Positions 5,011 through 20,169 of a stretch of DNA of 64,000 nt are shown here, piece after piece. Made by a program: the position numbers and the translations under genes. The stretch is from Halobacteriales archaeon YIM A00013 (GTDB taxonomy: Archaea > Halobacteriota > Halobacteria > Halobacteriales > Haloarculaceae): the NCBI GenBank assembly GCA_025041195.1, contig JAKCFM010000001.1, positions 372,001 to 436,000 on the forward strand, written 5' to 3'. The notes under the pieces are model-generated. The model searched no databases. It was not told the DNA's origin and saw nothing but the letters and a program-made list of their open reading frames with translations. Every line of letters begins with the position of its first letter. Within the stretch, counting starts at the first letter, position 1.

Positions 5011-5125
5011 CTCCAACCTTTTAGATTCGTGTTCGCTCCGCGCACCCTTCCGAAACAAGGCCGATCGCTGCGCTCGTGGTAAGCAATACTGGCCCCTCGC
5101 GGAATCAAAAATTCCGATGTTGCGG

Positions 5126-5985: not shown

Positions 5986-6425
5986 CGGACTACATCTTCG
6001 ATACGGAGCCACTCATTGCGTATTTTTACGATGAACCCGGTGCAGGGACGGTGGCAGAGCAGCTTCAGGAAATCGATAGCGATCAATCAACCGGTACGAT
6101 CTCCCACGCCACCGCAACAGAGCTCGTCTATAAAATTGCGCGGCTTGAAACTGGTTCCCCGAATCAGATCGAACCTGGTGACGACGAGTTCGCTATCGGA
6201 AACCAGGATCTGCGTGTGCTCCGGGGCTTTGGCGTAACGATCGAGACGCCCCCATGGAGTACCGTTGCCCGCATCAAAGGGGCAGGTGGTATCTCTCTTG
6301 GCGATGCATACGCCGCGGCGCTGGCACTTGTAGAGGATGCTCCCCTCGTCGTCGGCGCAGATCCCGAGTTTGACGAGCTGTCAGTCGATATCGACGTCTA
6401 TCGAATTCGTGACGACCCCGCGTGA
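5982..6425 (+). CDS. vapC: PIN-domain toxin (VapC)
   Basis: A 147-residue PIN ribonuclease. Acidic metal-site residues are visible: Asp7 in FDTEPLIAYF, a Glu in ATATELVYKI, Asp in ISLGDAYAAALA and Asp in GADPEFDEL. VapC toxins cleave tRNA or rRNA when not held by VapB. It overlaps vapB by ATGA, so translation is coupled. The pair sits between two CRISPR arrays, where it may stabilise the island. Confidence 0.88.
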   Translation: MTDYIFDTEPLIAYFYDEPGAGTVAEQLQEIDSDQSTGTISHATATELVYKIARLETGSPNQIEPGDDEFAIGNQDLRVLRGFGVTIETPPWSTVARIKGAGGISLGDAYAAALALVEDAPLVVGADPEFDELSVDIDVYRIRDDPA

Positions 6426-6607
6426 TCGCATCCAACCTATTTTCCCTTCGGGTGGGTTTCGCCCGCTCATCAGGGCTTGCGAGACGGTCGCTCTCTACGT
6501 TCGCGCTGGGCGAGACTCGCGGTGCTCGCGAGAATAAAAAACGTTGATGAAAAAGGCTGCGAGCGAAGCTCGCGGTGTGTGCGATGAGGTGGATCGCTTC
6601 GAACAGG
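6426..6607. repeat. Dispersed palindrome-rich element, copy 1
   Basis: The stretch contains CCTTCGGGTGGG, inverted arms around GCGAGCGAAGCTCGC, and the block AAAAAACGTTGATGAAAAA. The same blocks recur near 7010-7165, 9916-10045 and 16560-16697. It follows vapC and may include its terminator. Confidence 0.6.
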
Positions 6608-6788
6608 TTTTCAATCCCGTTCTGGGTTTCTAGGGTACTGTGACAAGAGGTTGAATCGTGGTGTTATCGCCACGGCGGTGAGTATCAATCCCGCTGTGGG
6701 TTTCTAGGGTCCTGCGACCTAACTCTCCTTTCAGCCACGCTATCGTATCGCGTTTCAATCCCGCTGTGGGTTTCTAGGGTCCTGCGAC
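6608..6788 (-). CRISPR. Small CRISPR array, 3 repeats of the 37-bp family
   Basis: Repeats lie at 6608-6644, 6682-6718 and 6752-6788, with spacers of 37 and 33 bp. The repeat variant reads CCCGCTGTGGG where the main array has CCCGTGTTGGG, so the CCC/GGG stem is kept while the loop differs. The leftmost repeat is degenerate (TACTGTGAC), marking the leader-distal end. Reading is leftward from the leader at 6789. Confidence 0.95.
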
Positions 6789-7005
6789 AGCGGGTGATTA
6801 TTGGAGTATAGCCCCTATAATCGTTTCTGCACCGGCGAGAATCGGACCTGTCTTCGTGGACCCCCTGTACACAGACCTTATAAAGGTCCACGAAGGTCAC
6901 GCCATCGATCTACCAAATCGACATCCAGACTCCGAATTCACTTCTCTTCTCACTGCCCGACGCACGTCAATGTTCCGCTGATTCAGGTAACGCAAATGGC
7001 TCCAT
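6789..7005 (-). promoter_or_regulatory. Leader and promoter of the small 37-bp-family array
   Basis: Nearly identical to the main-array leader over the first 58 bp, including the minus-strand BRE/TATA-like GAAACGATTATAGG. It also has the palindrome GACCTTATAAAGGTC at 6874-6888, inside a wider GTGGACC (6856-6862) and GGTCCAC (6885-6891) inverted repeat. The T/C difference between the two leaders in the palindrome completes symmetry here, which suggests a real protein-binding site or TATA element. Confidence 0.75.
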
Positions 7006-7009
7006 TCCA

Positions 7010-7165
7010 TCTTTTTAGACAGGGGTTCGCTTCGCTCACCACTCATCCCTGGCGAGACGGTCGCTCACTCCGTTCGCGCTGGGCGAAACTCTCTGGCTTT
7101 CACTCGCTGCGCTCGCGGTGGGTGATTCTAGCCACATGCGGTTTCAAAAGAATCCGTCATAGAGG
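7010..7165. repeat. Dispersed palindrome-rich element, copy 2
   Basis: It contains GGGGTTCGCTTCGCTCACC, the GCGAGACGGTCGCTC block also seen in copy 1, and ends GCGGTGGGTGATTCTAGCCA like copies 3 and 4. No coding potential is seen. Confidence 0.6.
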
Positions 7166-7240
7166 TTAGCTTTCGTGCGCTGGAGAAACCAACAGTTGGT
7201 GGATCACGGGAAGTTCCTTGATTGATATCCAGAAATCGGA
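7166..7240 (-). pseudogene. Fragment of the 10047-10571 gene family (3' end)
   Basis: CGCTGGAGAAACCAACAGTTG followed by GGATCACGGGAAGTTCCT matches the last codons (minus strand) of the two intact copies near 10050-10110 and 16705-16765. Only the 3' end survives. From 7240 to 7495 no gene is visible apart from a palindrome, GCTCACGA/TCGTGAGC at 7308-7326. Confidence 0.55.
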
Positions 7241-7495
7241 ATGACCACATCGAACAGACAGCTGGTGGAATCTCGTGTTGGGTCGGGTGAGCCCTCACCA
7301 GTAGTTCGCTCACGATCGTCGTGAGCTAGTTTCTAGATAGGCGTTATTCGACCAGGAATGGCTAGCAATATCCAGCGTACGACTACTGAACAAAAGGTCA
7401 TTTCCTCACACCTGCTGCTACTACCGAATCGACCGTCATTCGTGCTGAGATAAATTCCCTGTATAGATTCCTATCGGAGGGCGCTTGCTCACACC

Positions 7496-8269
7496 TTAGC
7501 TGCCCGTTCTGGGAGTAACGCTCACAACGTTCGTGAGGACACGATCAACAGCATCCGCAGTGAACTGTTCAGCGGTTGTGAGGCGTCTAGCAAGCCAGTC
7601 GTCGAAAATGACGGCTTTTCCTTGACCTGTGTGGACGACCTCCGTTCGATTGCCACCGAGGCGATCAAGGAACGACATCACTCGGGCGACCGTTTGGTCG
7701 TGTGCCGATCCGTACTCCCGTTCGAGCTGTTCTTTGATTGTTGTCGAATCCAGTCGCTTTCCTTTCGGCACTGTCGTGGCCAGTCCGCCGATCTCCATGG
7801 CAATCGCTCGGGCTCGTCGCTGATTGGCCGTCAGCTTCGCTTTATGAATAATTTCCTCCGGCAATCGAACGACTTGCTCCAGCGGCGTCCGTTGCTCGCG
7901 TCCATCAAGCGTCTCGACCTTCCGCGCAACGGCCTCGGTGTGTTTCTCCGACGCCTCCGTCTGACGAGCGTTCTCCGCCACGTCCTGTCTGATATCGGCC
8001 TTGTCCAGTTCATTCGATTCGCGATAGGTTTCGAGCTCGTCTTCGAGTTCCACAATCCGTTCGTGCAACTCTGCGTTTGTTGCTTCCTTCTGGGTGCGCT
8101 CTGCTTCCAGCGTGGCGATTCGCTCGTTTTGTGATTCGATCGTCTTGAGCATCGCTGTTTGCTGGTCGCGAAGGCTTGATATCGCGTCGAGGCACGTCTC
8201 GACAACTTCGCTGGTTTCATCAGTGTTATCTATACTCCGTCCGTCGATTTCGTTGGGTTTCAGAACCAT
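7496..8269 (-). CDS. Coiled-coil protein with C-terminal winged-helix region
   Basis: The product has 257 residues. The N-terminal KPNEIDG segment is followed by a long coiled coil (about residues 25-110; DQQTAMLKTIESQNERIATL and so on). The C-terminal part reads LTANQRRARAIAMEIG and TVARVMSFLDRLG, which resembles a winged-helix segment I associate with many haloarchaeal plasmid and accessory proteins. DNA binding is inferred. I placed the start at ATG 8269, where homology to the truncated copy begins, 35 codons inside the longest frame. A paralogue fragment lies next to the main array at 5126-5395, so this gene has moved or duplicated with CRISPR arrays. Confidence 0.65.
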   Translation of the reverse strand: MVLKPNEIDGRSIDNTDETSEVVETCLDAISSLRDQQTAMLKTIESQNERIATLEAERTQKEATNAELHERIVELEDELETYRESNELDKADIRQDVAENARQTEASEKHTEAVARKVETLDGREQRTPLEQVVRLPEEIIHKAKLTANQRRARAIAMEIGGLATTVPKGKRLDSTTIKEQLEREYGSAHDQTVARVMSFLDRLGGNRTEVVHTGQGKAVIFDDWLARRLTTAEQFTADAVDRVLTNVVSVTPRTGS

Positions 8270-8540
8270 TTTGATCCTGACCCATCCTCGGACGTGATGG
8301 AACACGTCTGGGGAAAACCGGGCAACCGGTTTTATCCCAGTCGGATGCGTATACCTACCACATCGAAATACCACTATTAATATGTGATGGAATTCAGATA
8401 GAAGTGTTCGGGGATGTTACAGTCGTATTGGTTGAAAGCTGTGCTAGAACTCGTGCTAAATCTTCTCTGAAGGTATCTAACCTACGCATAGTCGAAGCTC
8501 AAATCTGTTTAGACCTGATCGGTCAGCGGTCGGTTGGATT

Positions 8541-8674
8541 CTGCGGGGGTATCGTATGGTCATCAAACGGATATGTACCACAGACCCCCGGGAGTACAGG
8601 GGTTATTGAGGGTCTGTGGTCAAACCACCTCGGCAGTACTAAGTAGAGGGGCTGTATACCGCTGATTGGCAACG
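8541..8674 (+). promoter_or_regulatory. Leader of the 30-bp-repeat array
   Basis: This sequence precedes the conserved end of the array. CCACAGACCC (8578-8587) and GGGTCTGTGG (8610-8619) form a perfect 10-bp inverted repeat. CTGTATACC at 8652-8660 is about 20 bp before the first repeat and can serve as TATA box for rightward transcription. The stretch 8270-8540 upstream of it shows only the promoter side of the leftward 7496-8269 gene. Confidence 0.55.
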
Positions 8675-8898
8675 GTTACAGCACCACCCTAGTAGGATTG
8701 AAGCCGCGATCGTCGTGCGGGCGAGGTCCATCGATTGAGTTACAGCACCACCCTAGTAGGATTGAAGCTTCTACCCCTTCCCGATACCAGAGAGATACCA
8801 CTGGTTACAGCACCACCCTAGTAGGATTGAAGCACCCAACTGTTCTACTCGCATGAGACTTCCTCCAAGTTACAGCACTACCCTAGTAGGTTTGAAGC
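8675..8898 (+). CRISPR. Type I-B-like CRISPR array, 4 repeats of 30 bp
   Basis: Repeats lie at 8675-8704, 8739-8768, 8804-8833 and 8869-8898, with spacers of 34, 35 and 35 bp. The repeat starts GTTACAGCACCACCC and ends GGATTGAAGC, a 30-bp form typical of haloarchaeal type I-B. The rightmost copy has two changes (CACTACCC, GGTTTGAAGC), marking the distal end, so the leader is on the left. No type I-B effector genes are in the window. This repeat differs from the 37-bp family and needs its own Cas6 or cross-processing. Confidence 0.95.
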
Positions 8899-9066
8899 GG
8901 ACTCCAAGCGACACTATCGCGATGGGCGGAATGCAGATGTTCCATCTGGCCGTTTTCGTCTCATTTCGCGAATCATACACTGCCCTGACCGTTGCAATAG
9001 CCGCGCTGACACCCTTTTCACCCGGGCGAAATGGTTTAGCGTCTCAGGCGCTTACCAATGGTAGTG

Positions 9067-9318
9067 ATGGGCCGCAAACGGAACGACCACGGACAATACG
9101 TTGAGACGGTACCGCTGGACCGTGTGTTAGCCGAATTCGAGACGGCAGCGGAACCACTCACTGCGACGGAGATCAGTGACTCGCTGGGGGTTTCGAACCG
9201 TTCAGTGTTGAACAAGCTCAACACGCTGCATGAGCGTGGCGAGATCGGGCGAAAGGAAGTTGGCGCGAGCGCAGTCGTTTGGTGGGCTGATGGGGAGTCC
9301 GAGGAGGTACCAGCATGA
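9067..9318 (+). CDS. Small winged-helix DNA-binding protein heading the hic operon
   Basis: The 83-residue product has a helix-turn-helix (LTATEISDSLGVSNRSVLNKLNTLHERGEIGRKEVG, residues 30-65) and an AVVWWAD wing. ATG 9067 or ATG 9058 could start it. Its stop overlaps the hicB ATG by 4 nt, so it belongs to a three-gene operon with hicB and hicA. It probably represses the operon, a role HicB carries alone in other systems. Confidence 0.75.
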   Translation: MGRKRNDHGQYVETVPLDRVLAEFETAAEPLTATEISDSLGVSNRSVLNKLNTLHERGEIGRKEVGASAVVWWADGESEEVPA

Positions 9319-9560
9319 GCGTTCAACATCGAATCACACTCGTCGAGGATGCAGATGGTTGGTGGACTGCTCACGAAAAAACACACGGTCTAACGACCCA
9401 GGGAAAAACCCGCGATGAGGCACTTGCTAGCCTTGATGCGGTGATTGATGCGGTGGAAGACGGTGCTGGCACCCCACCGACAGACGAGGAACTCCGTGCG
9501 CTCGGAATTGATCCAGACGACAACACGCCGGGTGGCGAGTTGCCTGAGGTCCTCCGCTAG
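9315..9560 (+). CDS. hicB: HicB-family antitoxin
   Basis: An 81-residue protein with the HicB/DUF1902-like beta fold: HRITLVEDADGWWTAHEKTHGL, then TTQGKTRDEALASLDAVIDA, then an acidic tail. HicB proteins occlude the HicA active site. It is coupled to the preceding winged-helix gene through ATGA and is 10 bp upstream of hicA. Confidence 0.8.
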   Translation: MSVQHRITLVEDADGWWTAHEKTHGLTTQGKTRDEALASLDAVIDAVEDGAGTPPTDEELRALGIDPDDNTPGGELPEVLR

Positions 9561-9570
9561 GTGTTCTCGT

Positions 9571-9819
9571 GTGGTCTCCCGTGATTTCTCCGGCGACGAT
9601 ATTGTGAAGGTACTCTGTAATACGGGCAATTTCTGGGTGGATCGCATCGCTGGCGATCATGCTGTGCTCAAGTACGCGCACCCAGTGACAGACGAGAAGC
9701 GAACGGTGAGCGTTCCACTGCACGATCGCGTAAAAACGGGGACGCTTCGTAGTATTGCCGAGGATGCCGGTGCAAAAGATTTCGAGAAGTTTTGTCAGTG
9801 GATCGACCGCAATCGATAG
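9571..9819 (+). CDS. hicA: HicA-family mRNA interferase toxin
   Basis: From GTG 9571 the product reads MVSRDFSGDDIVKVLCNTG, followed by GDHAVLKYAHPVTDEKRTVSVPLH. The GDHAVL segment carries the catalytic histidine of the dsRBD-like HicA fold, and VPLHD and LRSIAEDAG match family positions. At 82 residues it has the usual length. HicA cleaves mRNA when free of HicB. Upstream in-frame codons overlap hicB and give a basic, non-family N-terminus, so GTG 9571 is preferred. Confidence 0.85.
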   Translation: MVSRDFSGDDIVKVLCNTGNFWVDRIAGDHAVLKYAHPVTDEKRTVSVPLHDRVKTGTLRSIAEDAGAKDFEKFCQWIDRNR

Positions 9820-9825
9820 CGTGGA

Positions 9826-9915
9826 GGGTACTCGTCGTGTGCTGGAGAGACTAACAGCTGGAGAATCACGGGAAGTTCCTCGATCGATCGGGCCTCACAG
9901 AACGGAACTACAGCC
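9826..9915 (-). pseudogene. Fragment of the 10047-10571 gene (3' end)
   Basis: TGCTGGAGAGACTAACAGCTG, GGGAAGTTCCTCGATCGATC and CACAGAACGGAACTACAGCC parallel the 3' end of the intact gene that starts about 130 bp further right. It stops abruptly where the palindromic element begins, as if a tandem copy had been deleted. Confidence 0.6.
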
Positions 9916-10045
9916 CAACCTTTTTTAATCTCGGGTTGCCTTCGGCAACCGCTCGATCAAAAAACGTTGATGAAAAAAGGCCGCGAGCAAAGCTCGCGGT
10001 GGGTAATTCTAGCCACACGTTGTTTCGAAAAATTACTCCGTAGAG
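9916..10045. repeat. Dispersed palindrome-rich element, copy 3
   Basis: It contains CAACCTTTTTTAATC, a GGGTTGCCTTCGGCAACC hairpin, AAAAAACGTTGATGAAAAAA, GCGAGCAAAGCTCGC and GGTGGGTAATTCTAGCCACA. Hairpin plus T-run on the plus side, and A-run on the other, could end transcription from both directions. Confidence 0.6.
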
Positions 10046-10046
10046 G

Positions 10047-10571
10047 TTACTCGCAGTTCGCTGGAGAGATCAACAACTGGAGGATCACGGGGAGTTCCTC
10101 GGTCGATCGAGCTTCACAGAACGGAACTACGGCCTCTAGCAAACAACTCGCGGCAGACACAGCCTCGTCCTGTGTCTGCGCCCGCGCCGGATCCTCCGGA
10201 CGATCGGGAGAAAACGCCAACAAAGTAACGTCACCGCTCCGTTGCTCGTGCGCGCGCAACCGAGCATCATTGTCGAACCAGGCGGTGTAGATCGTTTCCC
10301 CCTGCGAGCGAAACCGAGTAATCCGATCGAGCGACGGAAGCTCATCAATCCCACCACCCGAACGCTCGCTCAGATCAGCAATCGCCAGCACCTCCTCCAC
10401 CTGACGGCTATGCCGACACTCCGTCGATTGGCAGGGCCGACACCAGCAGTTCTCGGCGATATCCACAACGTGGTGCAACTCAGCACTCGACAGTTCTTCA
10501 CGATCGTCGATCCCTTCGAGCGTGCTGACCTGCCCATCTATCGTCCGGAAACTGAACTGTGGGAGACTCAC
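10047..10571 (-). CDS. Unknown cysteine-containing protein, duplicated copy A
   Basis: A 174-residue product from GTG 10571, reading MSLPQFSFRTIDGQVSTLEG, then ELHHVVDIAENCWCRPCQS with TECRHSRQVEEV, and later TLLAFSPDRPEDPARAQTQDEA. The CWCRPC..EC..H group could bind a metal. The GTG start overlaps the stop of the preceding small ORF as GTGA, which is why I prefer it over ATG 10646. Copy B at 16698-17225 is almost identical, and two 3'-end fragments lie nearby. I do not recognise the family. Confidence 0.6.
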   Translation of the reverse strand: MSLPQFSFRTIDGQVSTLEGIDDREELSSAELHHVVDIAENCWCRPCQSTECRHSRQVEEVLAIADLSERSGGGIDELPSLDRITRFRSQGETIYTAWFDNDARLRAHEQRSGDVTLLAFSPDRPEDPARAQTQDEAVSAASCLLEAVVPFCEARSTEELPVILQLLISPANCE

Positions 10572-10705
10572 GAGCCGACCCTCCACGATGGACACCCAGT
10601 CGCGTGTGCGCGTGGTCGAGCAACCGGTTGACCACAGCGAGCGCACTGCGTGCTAGTCATTGACGATACGACAGGATTACAGTACCGCAGCGTTATTCCC
10701 TTCAT
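10568..10705 (-). CDS. Small CxxC zinc-finger-like ORF coupled to copy A
   Basis: A 45-codon ORF from ATG 10705 (or 30 codons from ATG 10660) contains CARCGQPVARPRAHATGC, a possible C2HC zinc site. Its TGA overlaps the GTG of the next gene. The same ORF is kept in copy B with one substitution, but the DNA there is near-identical throughout, so conservation alone does not prove coding. A BRE/TATA-like CGAAATTTTATAAG (minus strand, near 10822-10835) lies upstream. Confidence 0.4.
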   Translation of the reverse strand: MKGITLRYCNPVVSSMTSTQCARCGQPVARPRAHATGCPSWRVGS

Positions 10706-10981
10706 GGGTTTGCTTCCGATAGGGAACCCAGCGTCGGGTGCGTCACCACCCGGCGCGATTTGATACACCGCGCACCCCGCAACGGGGACTGGTGCTCCCT
10801 ACTTTCGTTGGCAACCGCATGGCTTATAAAATTTCGTATGTGTTGGATTTCTACAGCGATGTGTGATCAACCAGAACCGTCTTTATTGATGGTGTGTCCT
10901 GCTATCCAGGGCACTTGATCGAGAAAACAAATAGTAGTTAGTAATTTTTGACATACTGGAATAACTAACTGCCATACGTGA
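10706..10981. other. Upstream region of copy A, with conserved promoter
   Basis: Homologous to 17360-17560. A block around TTATAAAATTTCGTATGTG (10824-10842) is shared by both copies and reads as BRE plus TATA for the leftward pair. Between promoter and first ATG is a conserved hairpin with CGGGTG and CACCCG arms (about 10736-10752) that keeps its stem but changes its loop in copy B. From 10860 on, no feature is seen apart from AT-rich sequence. Confidence 0.45.
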
Positions 10982-11173
10982 GTGACTTCAAAGTCATCAC
11001 TCATTGAACGAGAGTACCACCTCCACGAACGCCCAGCGTGGCCGAGAGGAACTTACGTCACCTCGTCGGAGGGGATTCGACAGTGCTGGATAGACGGTTT
11101 CGCTGCGGAAGAGACAGAGATCCCCGATGCTGACATCATGGATACATTGGAATCGGCTGCTGGATCCGTTTGA
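10982..11173 (+). CDS. Small unknown protein
   Basis: The 63-codon ORF from GTG 10982 reads LIEREYHLHERPAWPRGTYV and ends in an acidic region (EETEIPDADIMDTLESAAG). A decayed relative of its first third lies at 13709-13770, which supports a real, mobile or repeated gene. No known domain is recognised. Confidence 0.4.
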   Translation: MTSKSSLIEREYHLHERPAWPRGTYVTSSEGIRQCWIDGFAAEETEIPDADIMDTLESAAGSV

Positions 11174-11269
11174 TGGGGGATAATCCATCAAACTCAGAAT
11201 CCCATACTAATTGAGCCATCTTAACCAATTTCCAGTATCCATTACTATCTCTACTACTGATACTATCCT

Positions 11270-12553
11270 ATGAAACAGTCTCGTCGGACATTTCTCGCCA
11301 CAGTTGGTGCCACAGCAGCAGTTGCTGGCTGTGTCAATTTTAACGATTCACAGCCACCCCCTGGACAGATCATCGCTGGAGAACAGGTCCGATCTCCAAT
11401 TAGCGATGGGACACTATCCGGGATCAATCAATCGTGGCCGACAGCGCAGTTCAATGCCCAAAACAGTGGCTGTAATCTAGACCTATCGAAGCCCGCAGTT
11501 ACCCATGCACAGGTCAAATGGCACAACCAGGTCGCTGATGAAGAGGACGCCCTCGTTGACTCGCCGAGTCTCTACGATGGATCGGTGTTTGTGACAACCG
11601 ATCGTGCGCTCATCGTTTTGAACGCGTCAACAGGCAAAGAGCAATGGTCAGTATCTCTTGAGCAGGAGGGAGTTACAACACCGACGGTGACTGAACGTCA
11701 CGTTTATCTCGGAACCGTAGATAAACTCGTCGCGGTCAACCGGCACACGCAATCAATCGACTGGGTTAGAGAGATGACCACCAACCAGTCGTACCTGGGG
11801 GCTGCACATCCTCGCATCAATGGTGCGCCAACAGTCGCTGATGGAATTATACTTGTCACGACATATTATGGTGTGTTGTATGCCTTCGAGGCCGATACTG
11901 GTCGCCAACGATGGGCCACAACAGTCACGACACTGCCGGATGACACCGGAACACCAGGCGCGGACAATACTCCGTTCTTTGAGGGGCCGCCTGCCATCGC
12001 ACACGGGCATGTGTATGCTGCAAACGTGAACGGGTATCTGTACGCGTTCGATGCAGTAACTGGTGACCAGCAGTGGCGGGTGAAGAGCACTGGAGGATTT
12101 CAGCCCGGACCAACGGTCATTGACGACACGGTGTACGCCGTGTCCCAGGTTGAACTGCTGGCCATAGATGCAATCAACGGGACGGTCCGGTGGCGATTCA
12201 GGGAGGACTCTGGGTCAATGAAAGAGTCTGCCATCGTGCTTTCCGATACCATTTACGTTGCCTCCGGTGACAGCTACGGCTCGCTTGCGATTACGGCACT
12301 TGACCGCCAGAGTCGATCGGTACACTGGCGCGTTGAAGGACGGCCGCAAGCGAGCTTCAGCGCCGGTCCTCACCGACTATACGTCCCATTGTACGGTAAT
12401 CTCGTTGCGATTGACCGGAACCAGGGGACAGTCGAATGGGAGATGCACACAGAATCGGTCATCGGTGGACCACCGATCGTCACCGACGGAGGGGTTATCA
12501 CTGCTGATGAACGTGGCTCCATCTACGGAATCGGTTCCGCAAACAGGAACTGA
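11270..12553 (+). CDS. PQQ-like beta-propeller lipoprotein
   Basis: The N-terminus is a twin-arginine signal with lipobox (SRRTFLATVGATAAVAGC, Cys21), so the protein is exported folded and anchored outside. The rest is a seven- or eight-bladed propeller built of repeats such as DRALIVLNASTGKEQWSV, YGVLYAFEADTGRQRWATT and NGYLYAFDAVTGDQQWRV, the pattern of BamB/PQQ enzyme repeats. Aromatic and acidic catalytic residues of true quinoprotein dehydrogenases are not evident, so a scaffold or binding role is likelier. It stands alone, convergent with the 12588-13538 gene. Confidence 0.85.
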   Translation: MKQSRRTFLATVGATAAVAGCVNFNDSQPPPGQIIAGEQVRSPISDGTLSGINQSWPTAQFNAQNSGCNLDLSKPAVTHAQVKWHNQVADEEDALVDSPSLYDGSVFVTTDRALIVLNASTGKEQWSVSLEQEGVTTPTVTERHVYLGTVDKLVAVNRHTQSIDWVREMTTNQSYLGAAHPRINGAPTVADGIILVTTYYGVLYAFEADTGRQRWATTVTTLPDDTGTPGADNTPFFEGPPAIAHGHVYAANVNGYLYAFDAVTGDQQWRVKSTGGFQPGPTVIDDTVYAVSQVELLAIDAINGTVRWRFREDSGSMKESAIVLSDTIYVASGDSYGSLAITALDRQSRSVHWRVEGRPQASFSAGPHRLYVPLYGNLVAIDRNQGTVEWEMHTESVIGGPPIVTDGGVITADERGSIYGIGSANRN

Positions 12554-12587
12554 TCACTTCATTCGAAGGGTACGAGTGAGCGTGGTG

Positions 12588-13538
12588 TCACGTTCCCCAG
12601 CGGAGATCACTGCGACCGTATGGCTGTGGATTGGTGAGCCCACGCTCGATGTTCTCTTTCGAAAACGGTTGCGTCGGTCGCACCGCCTCCGGAATCGGAT
12701 CGCACACTCGTTCTGGAGCTGGCGTTGTTCCATCCTCTGCGAGAATTGTCACCTGTGTGGCTGTCGTCAGTGGCGTGTCTAGCACTCGCTCCTGTACCCA
12801 GGCGAATCCATAATGAGCCCGAACAGGAATCGGCACCATCAGTGGCGACCGATCGAGCACATCGCCAACGCGTTGGATGATTTCTCTCAGTGTGAGCTCT
12901 TCTGGTCCCATAATACCAAGCGTTGTCCCAGTGAAACGGGATTCAGAAAGCGCCGCGACCATACATTTGACGAGATCTTCGATCGCGAGTGGTCGCAATC
13001 GCCGTTCAGAACGGCCAAGCAACCCAAACACGGGAACTGTCACGAGCGCACGCGAGATGTGACTCAGCATATGATCTCCACGGCCGTACGTGATCCCTGG
13101 CTTGAGAATAGTGTACTCCAGCTCTGACCGACGGACAATTTCTTCGGCGGCCCATTTCGATTCGTGATACGCTGATCCACACTCCGGACGAGCCCGAAGA
13201 AAGCTACTCAGAACCATTGTTGTCACGCCCGCATCCTTCGCAGCCGCTACAACGTTCTCAGTCCCCTGGACGTGCACGGTGTCGTACGTTTGACTGCCTC
13301 GCTCAATGTTAATGCCTGCAAGATGAGCAACATGGTCACAGTCAGCAAACGCTGTCCGTAATGAATTCTCATCACTGATCGAGGATGTAACAAATTCGGT
13401 CCTATCTAGGGCACGAAGTGTCGACGTTTCGTTGGCGTGGCCACGGGACACAAGGACGACGTGGTGGCCATCTTCGACGAGCCTCCGTGTCAAGTGTGAT
13501 CCGATAAACCCAGTTCCGCCAGTAATACCAACTTTCAT
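12588..13538 (-). CDS. NAD(P)-binding atypical SDR (NDUFA9/NmrA-like)
   Basis: A 316-residue protein with an N-terminal Rossmann motif (VGITGGTGFIGSHL, residues 3-16) and a second strand ending VLVSRG. The usual SDR YxxxK appears as YHESKWAAEE. The arrangement matches the complex I NDUFA9-type subfamily of atypical SDRs, which includes NAD-dependent epimerase-like proteins of uncertain substrate. In the C-terminal domain, TLREIIQRVGDVL is conserved-looking. The substrate cannot be told. Confidence 0.8.
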   Translation of the reverse strand: MKVGITGGTGFIGSHLTRRLVEDGHHVVLVSRGHANETSTLRALDRTEFVTSSISDENSLRTAFADCDHVAHLAGINIERGSQTYDTVHVQGTENVVAAAKDAGVTTMVLSSFLRARPECGSAYHESKWAAEEIVRRSELEYTILKPGITYGRGDHMLSHISRALVTVPVFGLLGRSERRLRPLAIEDLVKCMVAALSESRFTGTTLGIMGPEELTLREIIQRVGDVLDRSPLMVPIPVRAHYGFAWVQERVLDTPLTTATQVTILAEDGTTPAPERVCDPIPEAVRPTQPFSKENIERGLTNPQPYGRSDLRWGT

Positions 13539-13843
13539 TATTAAAACCTATTACATTCCAGTTACTAAGAAGATGCACCCAATAGCCGACCGTTCCGTAT
13601 CCACTGATTGCAATACGAAGGAGATACGTCACAGCATTGGTCGCAACAGGAGAATGAAATTCGACCACGTAGCGTGGGGAGTAAGATAGGATTCGATCGA
13701 CTTGGGATTGCTCATTGAATGGGTCTATCTCAACGAACGCCAAGCGTAGCCGAGAGGAGGTATTGTGATCCAACTTAATTCTATTAGGCTATATCTGCAA
13801 ACTCGATAGTGACACTTAAGAATCAATAGCATATCAATTGTTA
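13539..13843. other. Intergenic region with remnant of the 10982-11173 gene
   Basis: The only recognisable content is 13709-13770, where CTCATTGAATGGGTC, CTCAACGAACGCC and AGCGTAGCCGAGAGGAGG parallel 10999-11058. In frame it reads LIEWVYLNERQA, then a stop where the intact gene has Trp, then PRGG. It is thus a decayed copy. The rest is AT-rich with no gene. Confidence 0.5.
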
Positions 13844-14029
13844 ATGGAAATGGAAGATAAAGAGATATACAAAGTATTATTTGCAATTATTATATTTTCA
13901 ATAGTTATTGGAGATAAATTGGCATCTCTTCAACTAAATGATGGCAACCCAACGAGTGCCAAAATAGTAATTCTCGCGGCGACCGTAGCCGTAATTATTG
14001 TATCACGCCGACTAGTGAAAAATGTGTGA
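13844..14029 (+). CDS. Small two-helix membrane protein
   Basis: The product has 61 residues and starts MEMEDKEIYKVLFAIIIFSIVIG, with a second hydrophobic stretch (KIVILAATVAVIIVSRRL). ATG 13844 is preferred to TTG 13838. Base composition is AT-rich compared with the core genes. No family is recognised. Confidence 0.45.
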   Translation: MEMEDKEIYKVLFAIIIFSIVIGDKLASLQLNDGNPTSAKIVILAATVAVIIVSRRLVKNV

Positions 14030-14277
14030 CGTTCACTACTTCAGGTTACTTTGAGATGTATTCATTCCCCGCAGAGCAGTCCGTACTGGATGGAATCACA
14101 GCTCTCTGTTGATGAAGCGCTCTGTTCGAATATGTTCCTTTCTGACAAAGTCTGCATATGTTATCTTATCTTCTATAAATGGTCTCATTGGTTATGGAAT
14201 TTATCTATACAAGTGTGATGTAGCGGGGTCAACAATCCGAACAGTAGAAATAAGTTGTTTTAGTCAAAATTACATGT

Positions 14278-14637
14278 ATGAATAATACAACGAGTGATAA
14301 TTCTCGCTTGACTAGCACATCAATGTGGTGGATCGGTATTGCCATTCAACCATTCGTAGTCGTTTTCTTTACTATTTTAATGGGTTTGCAAACTTTTGGG
14401 CTCGAACTACCGTTATTCGGAATTATAGCATTCAAATTCCTTCCGTACATCTATCTACTCTGTTCTATATCCTATATATTTGATGCTGGCTCCATTGCAA
14501 AGTATGATGGTTGCGATTGGAATCCAGGTAGAATCAGTTATTTCATCTTTGGATTCTTGTTTGGAATCATCGTTTCACCAATATATCTATACAAACGTAG
14601 AAAGTGCGTACAATTTTCCAAATATAGTTATACTTGA
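14278..14637 (+). CDS. Predicted membrane protein
   Basis: 119 residues with three or four membrane helices (WWIGIAIQPFVVVFFTILMG, GIIAFKFLPYIYLLCSISYIF, ISYFIFGFLFGIIVSPIYLY). The loop DGCDWNPGRISY before the last helix and the basic YKRRK end resemble DAPWSPNQWLWG and RRYRR in the protein at 17740-18144, so the two are probably distant paralogues. The function is unknown. The region is AT-rich. Bases 14030-14277 before it hold no gene. Confidence 0.6.
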   Translation: MNNTTSDNSRLTSTSMWWIGIAIQPFVVVFFTILMGLQTFGLELPLFGIIAFKFLPYIYLLCSISYIFDAGSIAKYDGCDWNPGRISYFIFGFLFGIIVSPIYLYKRRKCVQFSKYSYT

Positions 14638-14763
14638 AGAGGCTTTGTAGGAGTATAATCCTAACCTGGCTCAATCTAAAAATAGGATTCAATCACATGC
14701 ATAAAATTCAATCGAAAATAATATCTGACGCTGCAATTCGACTTTGTAATCAGTCAACCAAAC

Positions 14764-15066
14764 TCACTTCAGCTCGTACGATTTTGATACATAAATCATG
14801 GCTGAGGTGACGATCACCAACACAACTGTGTAGACGATCCAGATGCGGTCGAATCCGAAATAATCGATACCGCCCGTCAAAACCGTCAGGAGCGCAATCA
14901 CATACAGGCCAGTTCCAATGACGGTCGCCAATCCCTCCTCATCATACGTTTTCTCTGCGTCATACCCGGCAATGAGCTCCATCGAATGCTTCTCACGTAT
15001 CAAATATCCAAACACACCGACGACCACTGCGACCATCCAGACAATACCAACTACCAATTCGCTCAT
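14764..15066 (-). CDS. DUF3784-like membrane protein
   Basis: The product has 100 residues from MSELVVGIVW. It has three membrane helices. The segment REKHSMELIAGYDAEKTYDEEGLATVIG between the first two resembles the GY..EK..D...L stretch of DUF3784 proteins. I start it at ATG 15066, because the longer frame adds a basic N-terminus with no family likeness. Confidence 0.65.
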   Translation of the reverse strand: MSELVVGIVWMVAVVVGVFGYLIREKHSMELIAGYDAEKTYDEEGLATVIGTGLYVIALLTVLTGGIDYFGFDRIWIVYTVVLVIVTSAMIYVSKSYELK

Positions 15067-15195
15067 GGAAGCCGTAGTTCCTCTAATATCTTTCTTCCTG
15101 TGGTAGCAGAGGGTAGATTGTCTTGGGGGGATGCGGTGACCTGCCCATATATCTGCAGTCATCTTGTTCTCTCAGGAGAGAAACGAAGACTCACA

Positions 15196-15895
15196 TTACG
15201 AGGGACCGATTTTGTAGGGAAGCGTCGGTAATTCATACTCGGTGGCCGTCTCTGTGGTTCCAATGCGCACAGGATCGGATTTTGCTGTTTTGGAGGTTCC
15301 AATGGGAAACCAACCGCGGCCGTTCTCTACGACGATAATCAATCCGTGATCATCTCCGAGGGCCGCGAATGATGTATCGTCAGTGATCGGCGTGGAATGA
15401 TTCCCTTCGGGGAGTCACGCCGACGGTATTGCTGATCGCCTCGACAGCGCGTCCCACATTCGGAACTGCCAGCCCGATCTCGCTTACTCGCAGGAGGCTG
15501 TCGCTCCCAAACGGACGGTCTGAATCGTTGGAGAGGTCGTGGCGCGCAATGAGTTCGAACAGATTGTTCGCAGGATCGAGCCCGTAGACCGCATGAGCAT
15601 TCCAGTCCTCGAAAAAGATTTCCTGCTCTCCGGTTTCAGGATTTGTGAGCAGTTCAACTCGATCGGAGAGCCATGTAACGGCGTCAGCAAACTGATTCTG
15701 TGGGACGGTAATCGCGAAGTGATAGGATGGATCATTTCCACCATGTGATTCTGAAAATGTCACATCTGTTGCCCCGATGGTGACAGTGAATCTGTTGGCT
15801 GAGCTATTCGCGAGTGAACATTCCATGGTGTCGGTGTAGAATGTCTTGAGTTCGGTGAGATGAGCTGTTTTGAGATGGAGATCGTCAATCTTCAT
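15196..15895 (-). pseudogene. Frameshifted VOC (glyoxalase/bleomycin-resistance) protein
   Basis: The first frame gives MKIDDLHLKTAHLTELKTFY through VSEIGLAVPNVGRAVEAIS, a VOC domain with FELIARHDL, and ends early with PRRESFHADH. Continuing in the next frame gives TSFAALGDDHGLIIVVENG and RGWFP to a stop at 15196, which is the expected C-terminal part of this haloarchaeal family. The switch point is a run of four G at 15409-15412 (plus strand). Removing one base restores a protein of about 232 residues. It is either a real mutation or a sequence error. Confidence 0.7.
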
Positions 15896-15958
15896 AGAAG
15901 CGTTATCGTGTGAGTGCACGGAATATGTTTCGTGAACTACATTTTGGTAGCTTTTTTG

Positions 15959-16501
15959 TCAGCTCACACATTCTGGGTGTCGGGATGGTTCGCTCTGTGC
16001 GATCGATTTTTCATAAAGCAGCTGCGTTCGTTCGACTTCATCGAACCGGATGGAATGTCGTCGAATGACTTCGTAGCCGTTGGACTCGAAACAAGCTCGT
16101 GCTGGCTGTTGGGTCTCCATGGTGTCCAGCACGATCCGATCGAATTCTAGCTCACTGGCTCGACGCTCAAGCGCCTTAAGTATCGCCTGACCGTATCCAG
16201 AGCGCTGGTGATTCGGATCGACGCGCAGTCGTTTTAGCTCTGCTGTCGCACCGGCACAGTCGATCTGTTCCCTGAGCCGCCCCATCGCCGGGCGAATCGC
16301 GCCCATCGCAACGATTCGATTGTCGAGCTCGCCAAGAAGGAACGCTCCATTTGCGCAGTACGTCGTCTCGATCGCGTCGAGATCTGGTTCTGGCACGCCT
16401 TCGATGTATCCCCCTGCAGCATCCAGTGCCGCTCGATGCAGTTCGAGCACCCGATCGTGATCTGTCGGACGGTAGCCACGGATCTGGAGTGTATCTGTCA
16501 T
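15959..16501 (-). CDS. GNAT-family N-acetyltransferase
   Basis: 180 residues. The acetyl-CoA loop is LRVDPNHQRSGYGQAILKALE (motif A, residues 101-121, R-x-x-G-x-G/A form). Further marks are the preceding AELKRL strand and the C-terminal FESNGYEVIRR. The substrate is unknown. I start at MTDTLQIRGYRP because the longer frame reads through repeat-like sequence. Confidence 0.8.
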   Translation of the reverse strand: MTDTLQIRGYRPTDHDRVLELHRAALDAAGGYIEGVPEPDLDAIETTYCANGAFLLGELDNRIVAMGAIRPAMGRLREQIDCAGATAELKRLRVDPNHQRSGYGQAILKALERRASELEFDRIVLDTMETQQPARACFESNGYEVIRRHSIRFDEVERTQLLYEKSIAQSEPSRHPECVS

Positions 16502-16559
16502 AGGCGACCATAGCTCTCTCAGTACAAAGTGGTGGGAGATACCGGAACGCTGTGAAAGA

Positions 16560-16697
16560 TGCAACCCAACCTTTTTTCCCTTCGGGTGGGCTTCGCCCAC
16601 CCATCAGGCAAAAAACGTTGATGAAAAAAGGCCGCTCGCTCCGCTCGCGGTGGGTGATTCTAGCCACATGCGGTTTCAAAAGAACCCGCCGCGGGGG
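16560..16697. repeat. Dispersed palindrome-rich element, copy 4
   Basis: It holds CAACCTTTTTTCCCTTCGGG, GGGCTTCGCCCACCC, AAAAAACGTTGATGAAAAAA, CGCTCGCTCCGCTCGCGG and GGTGGGTGATTCTAGCCACA. It stands between the GNAT gene and the 3' end of copy B, as copy 3 stands beside copy A, so element and gene pair were probably duplicated as one unit. Confidence 0.65.
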
Positions 16698-17225
16698 TTA
16701 GTTGCAGTTCGCTGGAGAGACTAACAGCTGGAGGATCACGGGGAGTTCCTCGGTTGAACGAGCTTCACAGAACGGGACAACAGCTTCGAGCAAACAGCTC
16801 GCAGCAGAGTCAGCCTCGTCCTGGGTCTGCGCTCGCGCCGGATCCTCCGGACGATCGGGAGAAAACGCCAACAGCGTCACGTCACCGCTCCGTTGTTCGT
16901 GCGCCCGCAACCGAGCATCATTATCGAACCAGGCGGTGTAGATCGTCTCACCCTGCGATCGAAATCGTGTGATCCGATCGAGCGACGGAAGCGCATCCGG
17001 ACCACCGCCAGACGGACGCTCGCTAAGATCAGCGATCGCCAGAACCTCCTCAACCTGGCGGCTGTGTCTGCACTCCGTTGACTGACAGGGTCGACACCAG
17101 CAGTTCTCGGCGATATCCACGACGTGGTGCAGCTCAGCAGAGGAAAGCTCCTCACGATCCTCGATCCCTTCAAGCGTGCTGATCTGTCCGTCCGTCGTTC
17201 GGAAGCTGAACTGGGGGAGACTCAC
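16698..17225 (-). CDS. Unknown cysteine-containing protein, duplicated copy B
   Basis: A 175-residue near-duplicate of the 10047-10571 product. It keeps the NCWCRPCQS/TECRH cluster and differs mainly by a short insertion (SERPSGGG for SERSGGG) and scattered changes. GTG 17225 overlaps the small upstream ORF in GTGA fashion, as in copy A. Both copies intact and both overlaps kept argue that the pair is functional or recently duplicated. Confidence 0.6.
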   Translation of the reverse strand: MSLPQFSFRTTDGQISTLEGIEDREELSSAELHHVVDIAENCWCRPCQSTECRHSRQVEEVLAIADLSERPSGGGPDALPSLDRITRFRSQGETIYTAWFDNDARLRAHEQRSGDVTLLAFSPDRPEDPARAQTQDEADSAASCLLEAVVPFCEARSTEELPVILQLLVSPANCN

Positions 17226-17359
17226 GAGCCAACCCTCCACGACGGACACCCGGTCGCGTGTGCGCGTGGTCGAGCCACCGGCTGTCCACAGCGAGCACAC
17301 TGCGTGGCAGTCATTGACGATACGACAGGATTACAGTACCGCAGCGTTATTCCCTTCAT
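17222..17359 (-). CDS. Small CxxC zinc-finger-like ORF coupled to copy B
   Basis: A 45-codon ORF from ATG 17359 (or 30 codons from ATG 17314) equal to the ORF at 10568-10705 except Ser to Ala in MTATQCARCG. Coding status is uncertain, but the GTGA coupling with the following gene is kept. Confidence 0.4.
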   Translation of the reverse strand: MKGITLRYCNPVVSSMTATQCARCGQPVARPRAHATGCPSWRVGS

Positions 17360-17739
17360 GGGTTTTCCATTCCAGGGAACCCCAGCGTCGGGTGTTTTGG
17401 CCACCCGGCGCGCCTTTCGATGACGCACACCTTACACGGGGCTGGCGTCCCCTACTCTCTGTGCCTTCCGCTTTCGTTATAAACTTTCGTATGTGTTGGA
17501 TTTCCATAGAATTATGTGATTGCTCAGAACCGTCACTGTCGTTGCTGCGTTGAACCGGGATATATCACCCTGTAGCACCGTATGACTGCTGAAACTCGGT
17601 GGCGGCTTCGACCCGATCTTTACCATTATCTGCTGTTCGATTCAGAAAAATGACTGGTCTTCTACCATCCACTCGGCGGCCGTAAATGAGTCAGAACAGT
17701 ACCAACATGTTCATCGTATATCCATTCAAATAGACTGCT
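17360..17739. other. Upstream region of copy B
   Basis: Up to about 17560 it is homologous to the region before copy A, including CGTTATAAACTTTCGTATGTG (17475-17495) as leftward promoter and the CGGGTG/CACCCG hairpin. Similarity then fades. No gene is seen in 17560-17739. Confidence 0.45.
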
Positions 17740-18144
17740 GTGGATACACGTGAATATTCGATCTGGTGGTATGGTATCACCATCCCGGTTTTCCAAGCAA
17801 TAGGCTGGTTGGTTGCAATTCCATTTTTGCAACAGCAGAGCCTTGCACTTTCCGTGATTGCCATTCTCTTAGTTGGAGTTCTGAGTATCACGGCTTTCTT
17901 TCTTATACCAGTGTTCGTCTGCTGTTTGTGGCTTGACGCCCGGGAACTCAGTCGCAGTGATGCTCCCTGGTCGCCGAATCAGTGGCTGTGGGGTTCGTTG
18001 GGTGGAATAGCAATCCTTGTTGGTTTTCTCTTCCCGTATCAAGGCCCGGAGGTTATAATTTCCCTCAGCTATCTCATTCGACGATATCGCCGTATCGGTT
18101 TCTTAGGAGACACCGATGTTACACCAGAGCAACAAGTGGGGTAG
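17740..18144 (+). CDS. Predicted four-helix membrane protein
   Basis: 134 residues from GTG 17740, with four hydrophobic helices (ITIPVFQAIGWLVAIPFL, LALSVIAILLVGVLSITAFF, a short one, and LWGSLGGIAILVGFLFPY). The SDAPWSPNQWLWG loop and basic RRYRR near the end resemble the protein at 14278-14637. The function is unknown. It converges on the 18156-18686 gene. Confidence 0.55.
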   Translation: MDTREYSIWWYGITIPVFQAIGWLVAIPFLQQQSLALSVIAILLVGVLSITAFFLIPVFVCCLWLDARELSRSDAPWSPNQWLWGSLGGIAILVGFLFPYQGPEVIISLSYLIRRYRRIGFLGDTDVTPEQQVG

Positions 18145-18155
18145 CTTTGTAGTTC

Positions 18156-18686
18156 CTACCCCTCGGTAATTGGCGTTTCTCCAGCAGGGACGATCGTAAT
18201 ATCACCGTCCTCGAAGACATTGATTGCGTTCTCTAACTGTTTATCGCCACCGAGCTTCTGATGCGATAGGTGTACTGGTCGCGATCTCATCTTTTTTGGA
18301 CCTGTTACCATTATAGTGACCTTGGGGGGCGATAGCTGCGATCCGGTTGTATATTCAACACGATCGACTTTTTCCAATTGAATTTCTGGAGATATATTAA
18401 GATATTTCTCCTGAAGTATCTTATGTGCATATGAAATCGCAAATGCTAGTAAAGCGAATGAAAAGACAAACTTTGCCAAGGTTCGGCGGTATTGATCTTG
18501 AGAAATTACCAATACTGTCGCCATAAATAATAGCGAAATCATGATAATATAAAATAATATTTTACTTTGTTTATATATTATTTTAACAGCCCCAATTACG
18601 CTAGTATCTATCTCAATATAACTATCTGTAATACTCACAGTACCCTTACGACATTCAAATGAACCCCTTGATGTACTATTGCTCAT
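18156..18686 (-). CDS. Membrane protein, paralogue of 19663-20169
   Basis: The product has 176 residues. A short beta segment (GTVSITDSYIEIDTSVIGAV) is followed by two helices (ILFYIIMISLLFMATVLVIS, AKFVFSFALLAFAISYAH). The C-terminal part reads VEYTTGSQLSPPKVTIMV and KLGGDKQLENAINVFED, then ITIVPAGETP. The layout suggests a split PH-like fold around two membrane helices. A second copy with the same layout is 1 kb away. AT-rich composition suggests recent acquisition. Confidence 0.6.
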   Translation of the reverse strand: MSNSTSRGSFECRKGTVSITDSYIEIDTSVIGAVKIIYKQSKILFYIIMISLLFMATVLVISQDQYRRTLAKFVFSFALLAFAISYAHKILQEKYLNISPEIQLEKVDRVEYTTGSQLSPPKVTIMVTGPKKMRSRPVHLSHQKLGGDKQLENAINVFEDGDITIVPAGETPITEG

Positions 18687-18896
18687 AGTTTCCTCTATTC
18701 ATATGTGCTTGCAGTGGTTAACCAACAATATAGTTCTATATTAATTAGTTTTTATCAACCGATTGAATATCTCACTCCTGAGAGATCACTCAGCGGAGCC
18801 ACTTAGGTCCTGTACTCCCGAATCAGAAAGCGACACGATAGATGGAAAAGAGTTCCAAAGGCTAATATATGAAGTGTGTGGACCAAATTCGGAAAA

Positions 18897-19307
18897 TCAA
18901 TAGAAATATTGTAGATATGCATATCTCGACATTTCGAATAATATCATAGAACACATAAAGCCCAGTGCAGAAATGAATAAATAATCTGGGGAAAATACAA
19001 AAATATAGGATGCAATAAAGAGGCATGTCATAAGCATAATAATCAGCGTTTCATACAGTTGCGTCATAGTAGACCACCAATCTACAATAATTGCAGGCAG
19101 AGCAATGGAGCTAAATTTAGTATATATCAATAACGGGCTCGTAGTAGTGTATATAAGAACACCACCTATGAAATGTGTCCATATAATGTCTGCCCCATCA
19201 ATAACTTGGCCATACAATATGAATACATAGAGAATCCCAGATCCAATATAATAAAGAGGAGCTCTCCGTGACGCAGGATCAAGTGACAGTAGTGAATCTT
19301 CCCCCAT
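18897..19307 (-). CDS. Predicted membrane protein, AT-rich
   Basis: 136 residues with four helices (LYYIGSGILYVFILYGQVI, FIGGVLIYTTTSPLLIY, TLIIMLMTCLFIASYIFVFS, LFISALGFMCSMILFEM). No motif is recognised. It lies between the paralogous pair and shares their AT-rich composition. Confidence 0.45.
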   Translation of the reverse strand: MGEDSLLSLDPASRRAPLYYIGSGILYVFILYGQVIDGADIIWTHFIGGVLIYTTTSPLLIYTKFSSIALPAIIVDWWSTMTQLYETLIIMLMTCLFIASYIFVFSPDYLFISALGFMCSMILFEMSRYAYLQYFY

Positions 19308-19662
19308 ACCTACCCATCTAAGTTGAACTACATATTGTCTGTAGTGCTTTCACCCACTTTTTAATTCATGGGTGAATTTTCCACTATAGGTCTATTCGAA
19401 TGTTCTCCACGACGGTCAAGCAGAACGCAACGTGAGCAGATTGGCTCCCAATCCGTTACTGTGAGGCGGAGTTGGACTTATCGGAACTGGAATAAAAGCA
19501 CTCACAATTACAATATTTCTAGTCTCGATAGCAAGTCTCCATTTGGTGCGTTGATGCACACAAGTTAGGCTGATTGAAAGTTACCGGCACCTGGTGTCTA
19601 CCGGCGGTACCTGGTATTCACGATCGCCAGAAACGTTGGCCACCGCAAAAGCAGTCGAGTAG
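19308..19662. other. Intergenic region with one copy of a short repeat
   Basis: 19385-19455 is about 75 percent identical to 20369-20437. The best block is ACGACGGTCAAG followed by AGAACGCAACGTGAGCAGAT. Further on, TACCGGC..CCTGGT occurs twice in tandem (19582-19616). I see no gene. Confidence 0.45.
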
Positions 19663-20169
19663 TTAGCTGTTCTCATCCGGTGTTTCATCAGCTGGAACAA
19701 CCGTAATTCCGGCTTCTTCAAACGCTTCGATTGCGTTCTTTAGCTCTTGGTCTCCCCCGAGGCTTTGTAGGGATAAAAAGACTGGTCGCTTCTTCGTCTT
19801 CTTTTCCTTTTCAACGACTATGTACAACTTTGGGGCGAGCAGCTTCGACCCTGTCGTATATTCTATATGATTAATGGAACTACGGGAGATTTCTGATGTA
19901 TTTTTTATACTGTTGCTAACATGTTTGTATATGTATTCGAAAGTTATTGCTGAAATAGCGAAGATAACTACAAACTTACCCAAATATTGAATTGGTGAAG
20001 AATCCGACATCGAAGTGTCTATAGCTAATAGCATTCCGATACTCAGGAACGGAATAATGAGTCTATTTTGCTCATGGAGCCGTTTTAGGGCACCAAGTGG
20101 ACTTGTATTTAACTGAATAGTCCCATCAGAGATTGTTACTGTTCCAGATCTGATTTTAGTGACAATCAT
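19663..20169 (-). CDS. Membrane protein, paralogue of 18156-18686
   Basis: 168 residues with the same plan as its neighbour: GTVTISDGTIQLNTSPLGAL, two helices, then IEYTTGSKLLAPKLYIVV, SLGGDQELKNAIEAFEE and ITVVPADETPD. Both probably sense or bind something at the membrane through a PH-like domain, but no function is known. It is AT-rich. Confidence 0.6.
   Translation of the reverse strand: MIVTKIRSGTVTISDGTIQLNTSPLGALKRLHEQNRLIIPFLSIGMLLAIDTSMSDSSPIQYLGKFVVIFAISAITFEYIYKHVSNSIKNTSEISRSSINHIEYTTGSKLLAPKLYIVVEKEKKTKKRPVFLSLQSLGGDQELKNAIEAFEEAGITVVPADETPDENS

Follow-up and report, generated by a model that had tools for sequence, protein, structure and literature searches.

A structured leader RNA of Halobacteria and a dispersed family of zinc-finger-type gene units in Halocatena

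The stretch of DNA analysed here (the window; 64,000 nucleotides (nt)) corresponds to positions 372001–436000 of contig C1 in the 3.73 Mb genome of the Halobacteriales archaeon YIM A00013 (G000), a Halocatena genome; among named relatives, Halocatena halophila YIM 93972 is the nearest. The window contains two copies of a two-gene unit, both on the minus strand (10047–10705 and 16698–17359). An initial annotation, made from the sequence alone, had described a conserved promoter with a hairpin in front of each copy. It was found that this element is a structured leader RNA, which the initial annotation had not recognised and which is the main finding of this work. On the best reading of the data, the leader is a member of a family of structured RNAs in Halobacteria; no paper describing it was found in the open-licence literature searched. 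The units themselves are best explained, with a probability of roughly 0.4, as a dispersed family of RNA-led zinc-finger cassettes that multiplied within Halocatena lineages and were probably homogenised by recombination.

Structure and distribution of the leader RNA

An alignment of 35 leaders, including those of the window, gave three stems, P1, P2 and P3, and a covariance model (R1) was built from it. The model matched the minus strand of the window at 10720–10800 in copy 1 (64.1 bits) and at 17374–17453 in copy 2 (71.1 bits). A TATA box was recognised by eye on the same strand at 10824–10831 and 17477–17483, in copy 2 about 25 nt before P1; a TATA element at this distance was also seen by eye in Halocatena and in several loci of family f7. 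R1 matched 71 of 391 Halobacteria genomes, representing 29 of 86 genera (E ≤ 0.001), no more than 11 candidates being scored in any genome. A DNA pattern describing the f7 version of the RNA was found in 49 of 382 genomes, all of family f7 and with up to 15 matches per genome, and the reversed pattern gave no match in those genomes. Family f7 is probably Natrialbaceae, since one f7 genome has a leader region with matches in Natrinema, Natribaculum, Natronococcus and Halomontanus plasmids, and is called by that name below.

To evaluate covariation, an alignment of 69 instances fitted to R1 was used. Standard pairs occupied 96.9% of the pair cells, and 12 of the 20 pairs changed on both sides (9/9 in P1, 3/5 in P2 and none in P3). 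The number of double-changed cells was 222, compared with a mean of 79 after shuffling and at most 43 in slid controls. The P3 stem is nearly invariant and yields no covariation evidence itself. Compensatory changes were thus observed together with a recurrent gene context, described below, as expected of a conserved structured RNA family.

A scan against Rfam 15 gave no match at E ≤ 1 in four loci (L001, L025, L026 and L021), and three matches, all below the gathering score, in six others. Like the cis-regulatory leaders collected in Rfam, this RNA has covarying stems upstream of a recurring type of gene. It differs from them in that none was matched above the gathering score in the loci scanned, that it occurs in several copies per genome and that a near-fixed stem carries a changing loop. 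The result adds to Halobacteria a covarying structured RNA without an Rfam match that is tied to small zinc-finger genes. Viral carriage was also considered: short patterns were found on 2 and 3 IMG/VR contigs, none of which matched R1 at E ≤ 0.01. A pattern limited to P3 matched 34 of 391 genomes; among the 25 loci shown outside Halocatena (L167–L191), the complete context of the leader was recognised by eye in L168 and L173 alone, and the rest were rejected as chance-like.

Genes located behind the leader RNA

In each window copy, the leader is followed on the minus strand by a micro-open reading frame (micro-ORF) of 45 amino acids (aa), located at 10568–10705 in copy 1 and 17222–17359 in copy 2. 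It is joined by a GTGA overlap to a second gene, ORF2, which occupies 10047–10571 (174 aa) in copy 1 and 16698–17225 (175 aa, GTG start) in copy 2. This arrangement agrees with the initial annotation, as does the presence of the CWCRPC cluster and of a palindromic element on the 3' side (9915–9999 and 16566–16650, without strand). The copies had been called almost identical; their DNA is in fact only 83–86% identical and their ORF2 proteins 95%. The repeated DNA is also longer than first stated: it spans about 970 bp, from about 50 nt ahead of the TATA box through the whole palindrome. The ATG of the copy 2 micro-ORF lies within CCC-ATGAA-GGG.

The micro-ORF had been called C2HC-like. Its Cx2C...HxxxC pattern fits this description, but no Pfam family was matched at the cut-off, and no significant family match was found in the databases searched, including Pfam and PHROGs. 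Haloarchaeal C(P)XCG one-domain zinc-finger micro-proteins (the subject of PMC6562870 and PMC11241148) are likewise small and carry CxxC-type clusters, and ORFs of this type follow the RNA in many Natrialbaceae instances. Unlike these proteins, the Halocatena micro-ORF has one CxxCG (as in both window copies) followed by H and C, is coupled to ORF2 and is headed by a structured RNA.

ORF2 of the window copies includes the motif W-C-x2-C-x4-C-x-H, whose five residues do not vary among the 71 aligned members. No match to the ORF2 family was found in NCBIfam or PHROGs, or in Pfam for the window protein, and there was no match among PDB sequences at E ≤ 1 and no viral match at E ≤ 0.001. A PADLOC match to CARF3 (E 0.024) was weak and was taken as chance. 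The AlphaFold2 model had low confidence (mean predicted local distance difference test score 67.4, predicted template modelling score 0.52); its best VIA-align row was KhtT (Z 6.1, 3.2 Å over 65 residues), mainly covering residues 76–172. ORF2 of subfamily A resembles the SWIM zinc finger (PF04434) in its CxCx7CxH arrangement, and the ORFs behind the same RNA at L197 and L211 match SWIM at E 0.0038 and 0.0069, just under the Pfam cut-off. In contrast, SWIM was absent among the families matched by the 71 ORF2 members at E ≤ 1, and the first cysteine of the cluster is missing in the aligned members of subfamilies B, C and D.

Outside Halocatena, a zinc-finger-type ORF, called by a regular expression, started within 260 nt of the RNA on the same strand in 28 of 42 instances, compared with 3 of 168 control windows. 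Many of the ORFs behind the RNA there encode small CPxCG...PCGC proteins. At six plasmid loci of Halomontanus rarus, units of about 785 bp are headed by the RNA and encode a 50-aa zinc finger, accompanied in five of the six by an ORF of 86 or 87 aa; some pairs of these units have unrelated 5' flanks. Their P3 loops are TTGGAG, TTCCAG (twice), CTAGAA, CTTGAA and CGGGAA. Thus, the cassette plan is not peculiar to Halocatena, while ORF2 itself is confined to this genus as far as it was searched: a search of 59 genomes (G000 included) detected the protein in seven, all of one genus (g1, Halocatena).

Two further observations concern these loci. A divergent transcription factor IIB gene lies at a constant distance upstream in three of the six Halomontanus loci (L258, L260 and L262; strain KZCA124). 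Single leader RNAs were found at L163 1456–1534 (G002), L168 1456–1533 (G263) and L173 1457–1533 (G275), where they precede small proteins other than ORF2, so the RNA is not tied to one gene.

Copies of the unit in Halocatena

The genome-wide count that the initial annotation had proposed was carried out and revealed a dispersed multi-copy family. DNA of the unit matches at least 34 places in G000, with 40 of 56 first-look candidates scored; eleven of these are complete or nearly so (subfamily A) and about 20 are fragments, nearly all of which retain the 3' end of the unit. A simple tandem duplication limited to the two window copies is thereby excluded. Subfamily B, about 40% identical to A in protein, adds 12 copies, so that G000 contains about 23 scattered units of two subfamilies and many 5'-truncated fragments. 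Twenty-two ORF2 copies of G000 entered alignment A1 as open frames. The 3'-end fragments reported for the window are genuine, with matching spans at 7103–7225 (85% identity to the 3' end of the unit) and 9841–9914 (88%, directly after the copy 1 palindrome), both on the minus strand.

Exact matches to the P3 hairpin pattern of the leader numbered 21 in G000, 18 in G001, 15 in G003, 12 in the draft G004 and 31 in G005; the reversed pattern gave none in G000. Each of the 21 matches in G000 lies just upstream of an ORF2 unit. G002 and G006 have one match, on a contig common to both; their C1 contigs agree in length and match positions and probably represent one replicon, present in a cleaner assembly and in a mixed one. 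Contig C1 carries all the exact matches of G001, G003 and G005 and 20 of the 21 of G000; in G005, it accounts for 2.86 of about 6.0 Mb, yet holds every match. The data support the conclusion that different Halocatena species bear their own subfamilies of the unit. In this genus, the leader RNA heads lineage-specific gene families of about 12–31 copies.

The ratio of nonsynonymous to synonymous substitution rates among copies was 0.081, 0.044, 0.144 and 0.125 in four sets. Values of 0.04–0.14 correspond to purifying selection and indicate that the genes are used.

A comparison of locations showed, for each of the nine A-type loci fetched from G001, synteny on one side or both with an A locus of G000. 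The window copy at 9911–10886 had no syntenic partner among these nine loci, and G001 has an extra unit copy at 909938. Between G003 (13 loci) and G005 (20 loci), flanking genes were common to seven locus pairs, and the unit was inverted relative to its flanks in three of them. G000 had three flank-sharing pairs with G003 and five with G005, some of which rest on one gene only. The ORF2 DNA identity was 68.3% for five shared-site G003/G005 pairs and 68.4% for the 211 other pairs, while copies within a genome were 84.5% (G003) and 80.5% (G005) identical. Copies at shared sites are thus no more alike than others, which is the pattern of concerted evolution. It points either to old positions with homogenisation or to sites that were used again, since a similar picture would result if units had inserted repeatedly at these places. 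Dispersed similar copies are likely substrates for rearrangement, as exemplified by locus L124 (G003:C1:1428000-1438000), whose left flank corresponds to that of G005 locus L108 and right flank to that of L109, with the unit at the breakpoint.

In the proposed mechanism, each cassette would have its own promoter, with transcription most likely starting from P1, and the leader of about 80 nt would fold into P1, P2 and P3. In Halocatena, it would continue into the zinc-finger-like micro-ORF, whose ATG is predicted to lie within a small hairpin, and the GTGA overlap suggests that the micro-ORF and ORF2 are probably translated together. The leader would most likely regulate the zinc-finger genes in cis, and the nearly invariant P3 stem with its exposed loop of 6–7 nt may be the part read by a trans-acting factor. 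Copies would have multiplied separately in each Halocatena lineage, their likeness being maintained mainly by homologous recombination or gene conversion, presumably not by a transposase of their own.

Several observations weigh against this explanation. ORF2 has no recognised domain, and 14 of the 42 instances outside Halocatena are without a zinc-finger-type ORF by the criterion used. In Natrialbaceae, the zinc-finger ORF often begins 120–190 nt after P3 with a TATA-like palindrome between them (by eye), so the RNA there may be a separate transcript and not a leader. No partner of the P3 loop was found in cis, no complement exceeding permutation between −400 and +1400. Orthologues of G000 and G001 are more alike than non-orthologues (0.89 vs. 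0.839 for subfamily A and 0.886 vs. 0.819 for B), which means that homogenisation is incomplete. Finally, the inverted units at three of the seven shared G003/G005 sites could mean re-insertion.

Variability of the P3 loop

The P3 loop, whose variability the initial annotation had not noticed, is GTGACG in window copy 1 (10741–10746, minus strand) and GCCAAAA in copy 2 (17395–17401, minus strand). Among the 248 loops listed from 35 genomes, 144 were 7 nt long, 103 were 6 nt and one was 5 nt. The 6-nt loops most often had C and A (42) or T and G (35) as the first and last base. A Watson–Crick pair between these bases was found in none of the 103 6-nt loops and in one of the 144 7-nt loops.

In 14 orthologous G000/G001 pairs, the loops differed at 43 of 98 aligned positions (0.44), and two of the 14 were identical; fourfold sites of ORF2 in these pairs differed at 367 of 1224 positions (0.30). 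The neighbourhood of the loop differed at 69 of 849 positions in the 60 nt before it and 35 of 565 in the 40 nt after it. Window copy 2 and its G001 partner form the clearest pair: their flanks differ at 0/60 and 0/40 positions, and their loops are GCCAAAA and CTAGGA. The loop is constrained, yet it turns over as fast as synonymous sites or somewhat faster; both the loop and the fourfold-site figures may be inflated by gene conversion. Where orthologous loops differ, they are no closer to each other than random loops (direct distance 63 vs. 64.6, p 0.40). Active hypermutation of the loop was also considered and is weakened by the comparison of 0.30 with 0.44 and by three Natrialbaceae pairs that keep the loop. 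Natrialbaceae pairs of about 77–90% identity mostly differ in their loops.

A less probable explanation is an ordinary family of duplicated genes that have a structured leader, in which the P3 loop is a weakly constrained hairpin tip without information. In its favour, the loop differences between orthologues exceed those at fourfold sites by a factor of only about 1.5, and distinct loops within genomes are no more frequent than expected by chance (2 identical among 1491 pairs vs. 5.2 expected, not significant). The absence of a partner in cis is consistent with it, and so is the retention of the loop in the three Natrialbaceae pairs, which are 89.7, 92.9 and 97.7% identical. Against it, 247 of the 248 loops are held to 6 or 7 nt with a Watson–Crick first–last pair in only 1 of 247, and a free tip would not be expected to combine such constraint with change as fast as, or faster than, at synonymous sites. 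In addition, the two loops are entirely different in one Natrialbaceae pair of 96.3% identity. Identical loops across genera also exceed the shuffled null (168 ordered pairs vs. a mean of 51 and a maximum of 96); between Halocatena and Natrialbaceae, there were 30 of 14700 (mean 4.8, maximum 13).

A more specific proposal is that the loop acts as a codeword. The fixed stem would show one of a few hundred allowed words of 6–7 nt, co-resident copies would carry different words that turn over even as the remaining parts of a copy are homogenised, and an RNA or protein reader in trans would address each cassette. We regard this as doubtful. If true, it would be an RNA identity system across dispersed gene copies; the combination of a fixed stem and a changing loop allows a direct test of copy-specific information in an archaeal RNA loop. 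The kissing-loop antisense control of ColE1 and R1 plasmids likewise uses a GC-rich stem and a loop of 6–7 nt that differs between co-resident copies. In contrast to that control, loop uniqueness within genomes is not significant here.

Mobility and neighbouring genes

The initial annotation had suggested a spreading unit without a transposase. Its dispersal, the truncated remnants and the absence of a transposase gene inside the unit agree with this suggestion, whereas recent active spread is not supported, because all nine fetched A loci of G001 are syntenic with G000. The units of the Halomontanus plasmids with unrelated 5' flanks show that dispersal did occur. Self-driven spread of the unit is not supported, and an earlier spread by another agent is possible.

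A non-autonomous mobile element, mobilised in trans by an enzyme whose gene lies elsewhere and leaving 5'-truncated copies as incomplete insertions, appears rather unlikely. The roughly 23 units and 20 fragments of G000, nearly all of the latter with the 3' end preserved, are consistent with such an element, as are the lineage-specific subfamilies, the unrelated 5' flanks in Halomontanus and the units inverted at shared G003/G005 sites. The G001 synteny and the strong purifying selection on ORF2 argue against it. No inverted repeats of at least 30 nt (12-nt seed) were found in window positions 5000–20000, and the terminal inverted repeats typical of miniature inverted-repeat transposable elements (MITEs) were accordingly not found at these settings. 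The unit contains no transposase; no search for a helper transposase or recombinase was made. Target duplications were not found, though no systematic search for them was made, and no clean empty site for the flanks of L011 was present in G002, G003 or G005. MITE-like and repetitive extragenic palindromic (REP)-like repeats are similarly dispersed and short, have no transposase inside and carry a palindromic 3' element; unlike them, the unit carries two genes under purifying selection.

The fragments also bear on this question. Six of the 15 listed fragments start immediately behind AAAAAAGGTTG(G), the end of the palindrome of a different piece, which is also expected from recombination, and a short GGC or GGCTG match was seen by eye at these junctions. 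The palindrome core occurs 16 times in G000, 14 times in G001 and not at all in the other 18 genomes searched, and four G003 copies have a similar palindrome inside the micro-ORF region. A gene for a 258-aa coiled-coil protein (window 7496–8272, minus strand) is a recurrent neighbour of A-type units; it is on the same strand as the unit at seven of seven G000 loci, upstream or downstream, and at L017 it is fused to the 3' end of the unit. The fragment junctions, palindromes and coiled-coil association are signs of recombination and no proof of transposition.

It is very unlikely that P3 is a DNA site, with two inverted arms around a 6–7-bp spacer that is recombined or inverted as DNA: its geometry may resemble that of tyrosine recombinase core sites, reverse complementing brings some orthologous loops nearer to each other (edit distance 6 to 2, 5 to 2 and 7 to 3) and the flanks of two G005 loci meet at a unit in one G003 locus, but the inversion test was suggestive only and not significant (p 0.07 for 9 diverged pairs, 0.35 for all 17), reverse-complement sharing across genera was within the null range (42 vs. 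a mean of 20 and a maximum of 52), P1 and P2 covary outside the putative core, and the promoter, RNA and ORFs are on one strand in Halocatena.

The type-related strain H. halophila YIM 93972 forms hyphae and spores (PMC10067837); in the main text of that paper, as far as it was accessible, the zinc-finger cassette family is not named and the word "zinc" does not occur.

Other features of the neighbourhood were noted. Members of the coiled-coil family are found next to units in the window (7496–8272, with a remnant at 5126–5401) and at L012, L014, L015, L016, L017 and L018, and the family recurs beside the A-type units of G001 as well as those of G000. Its matches number about nine in each of G000 and G001 and one or two in each of G003, G004 and G005; G002 has none. 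A gene for a DUF7387 protein (9315–9560, plus strand), followed by a HicA-like toxin gene (9445–9819, plus strand), is located between the coiled-coil gene and copy 1. Arrays resembling clustered regularly interspaced short palindromic repeats (CRISPR), with differing repeats, lie near some units (window about 3524–4721, 6608–6788 and 8674–8898; L018 10403–12108; L056 8857–9187). The window and L018 share a segment consisting of the coiled-coil gene, a unit fragment and an array, as if these had been duplicated jointly.

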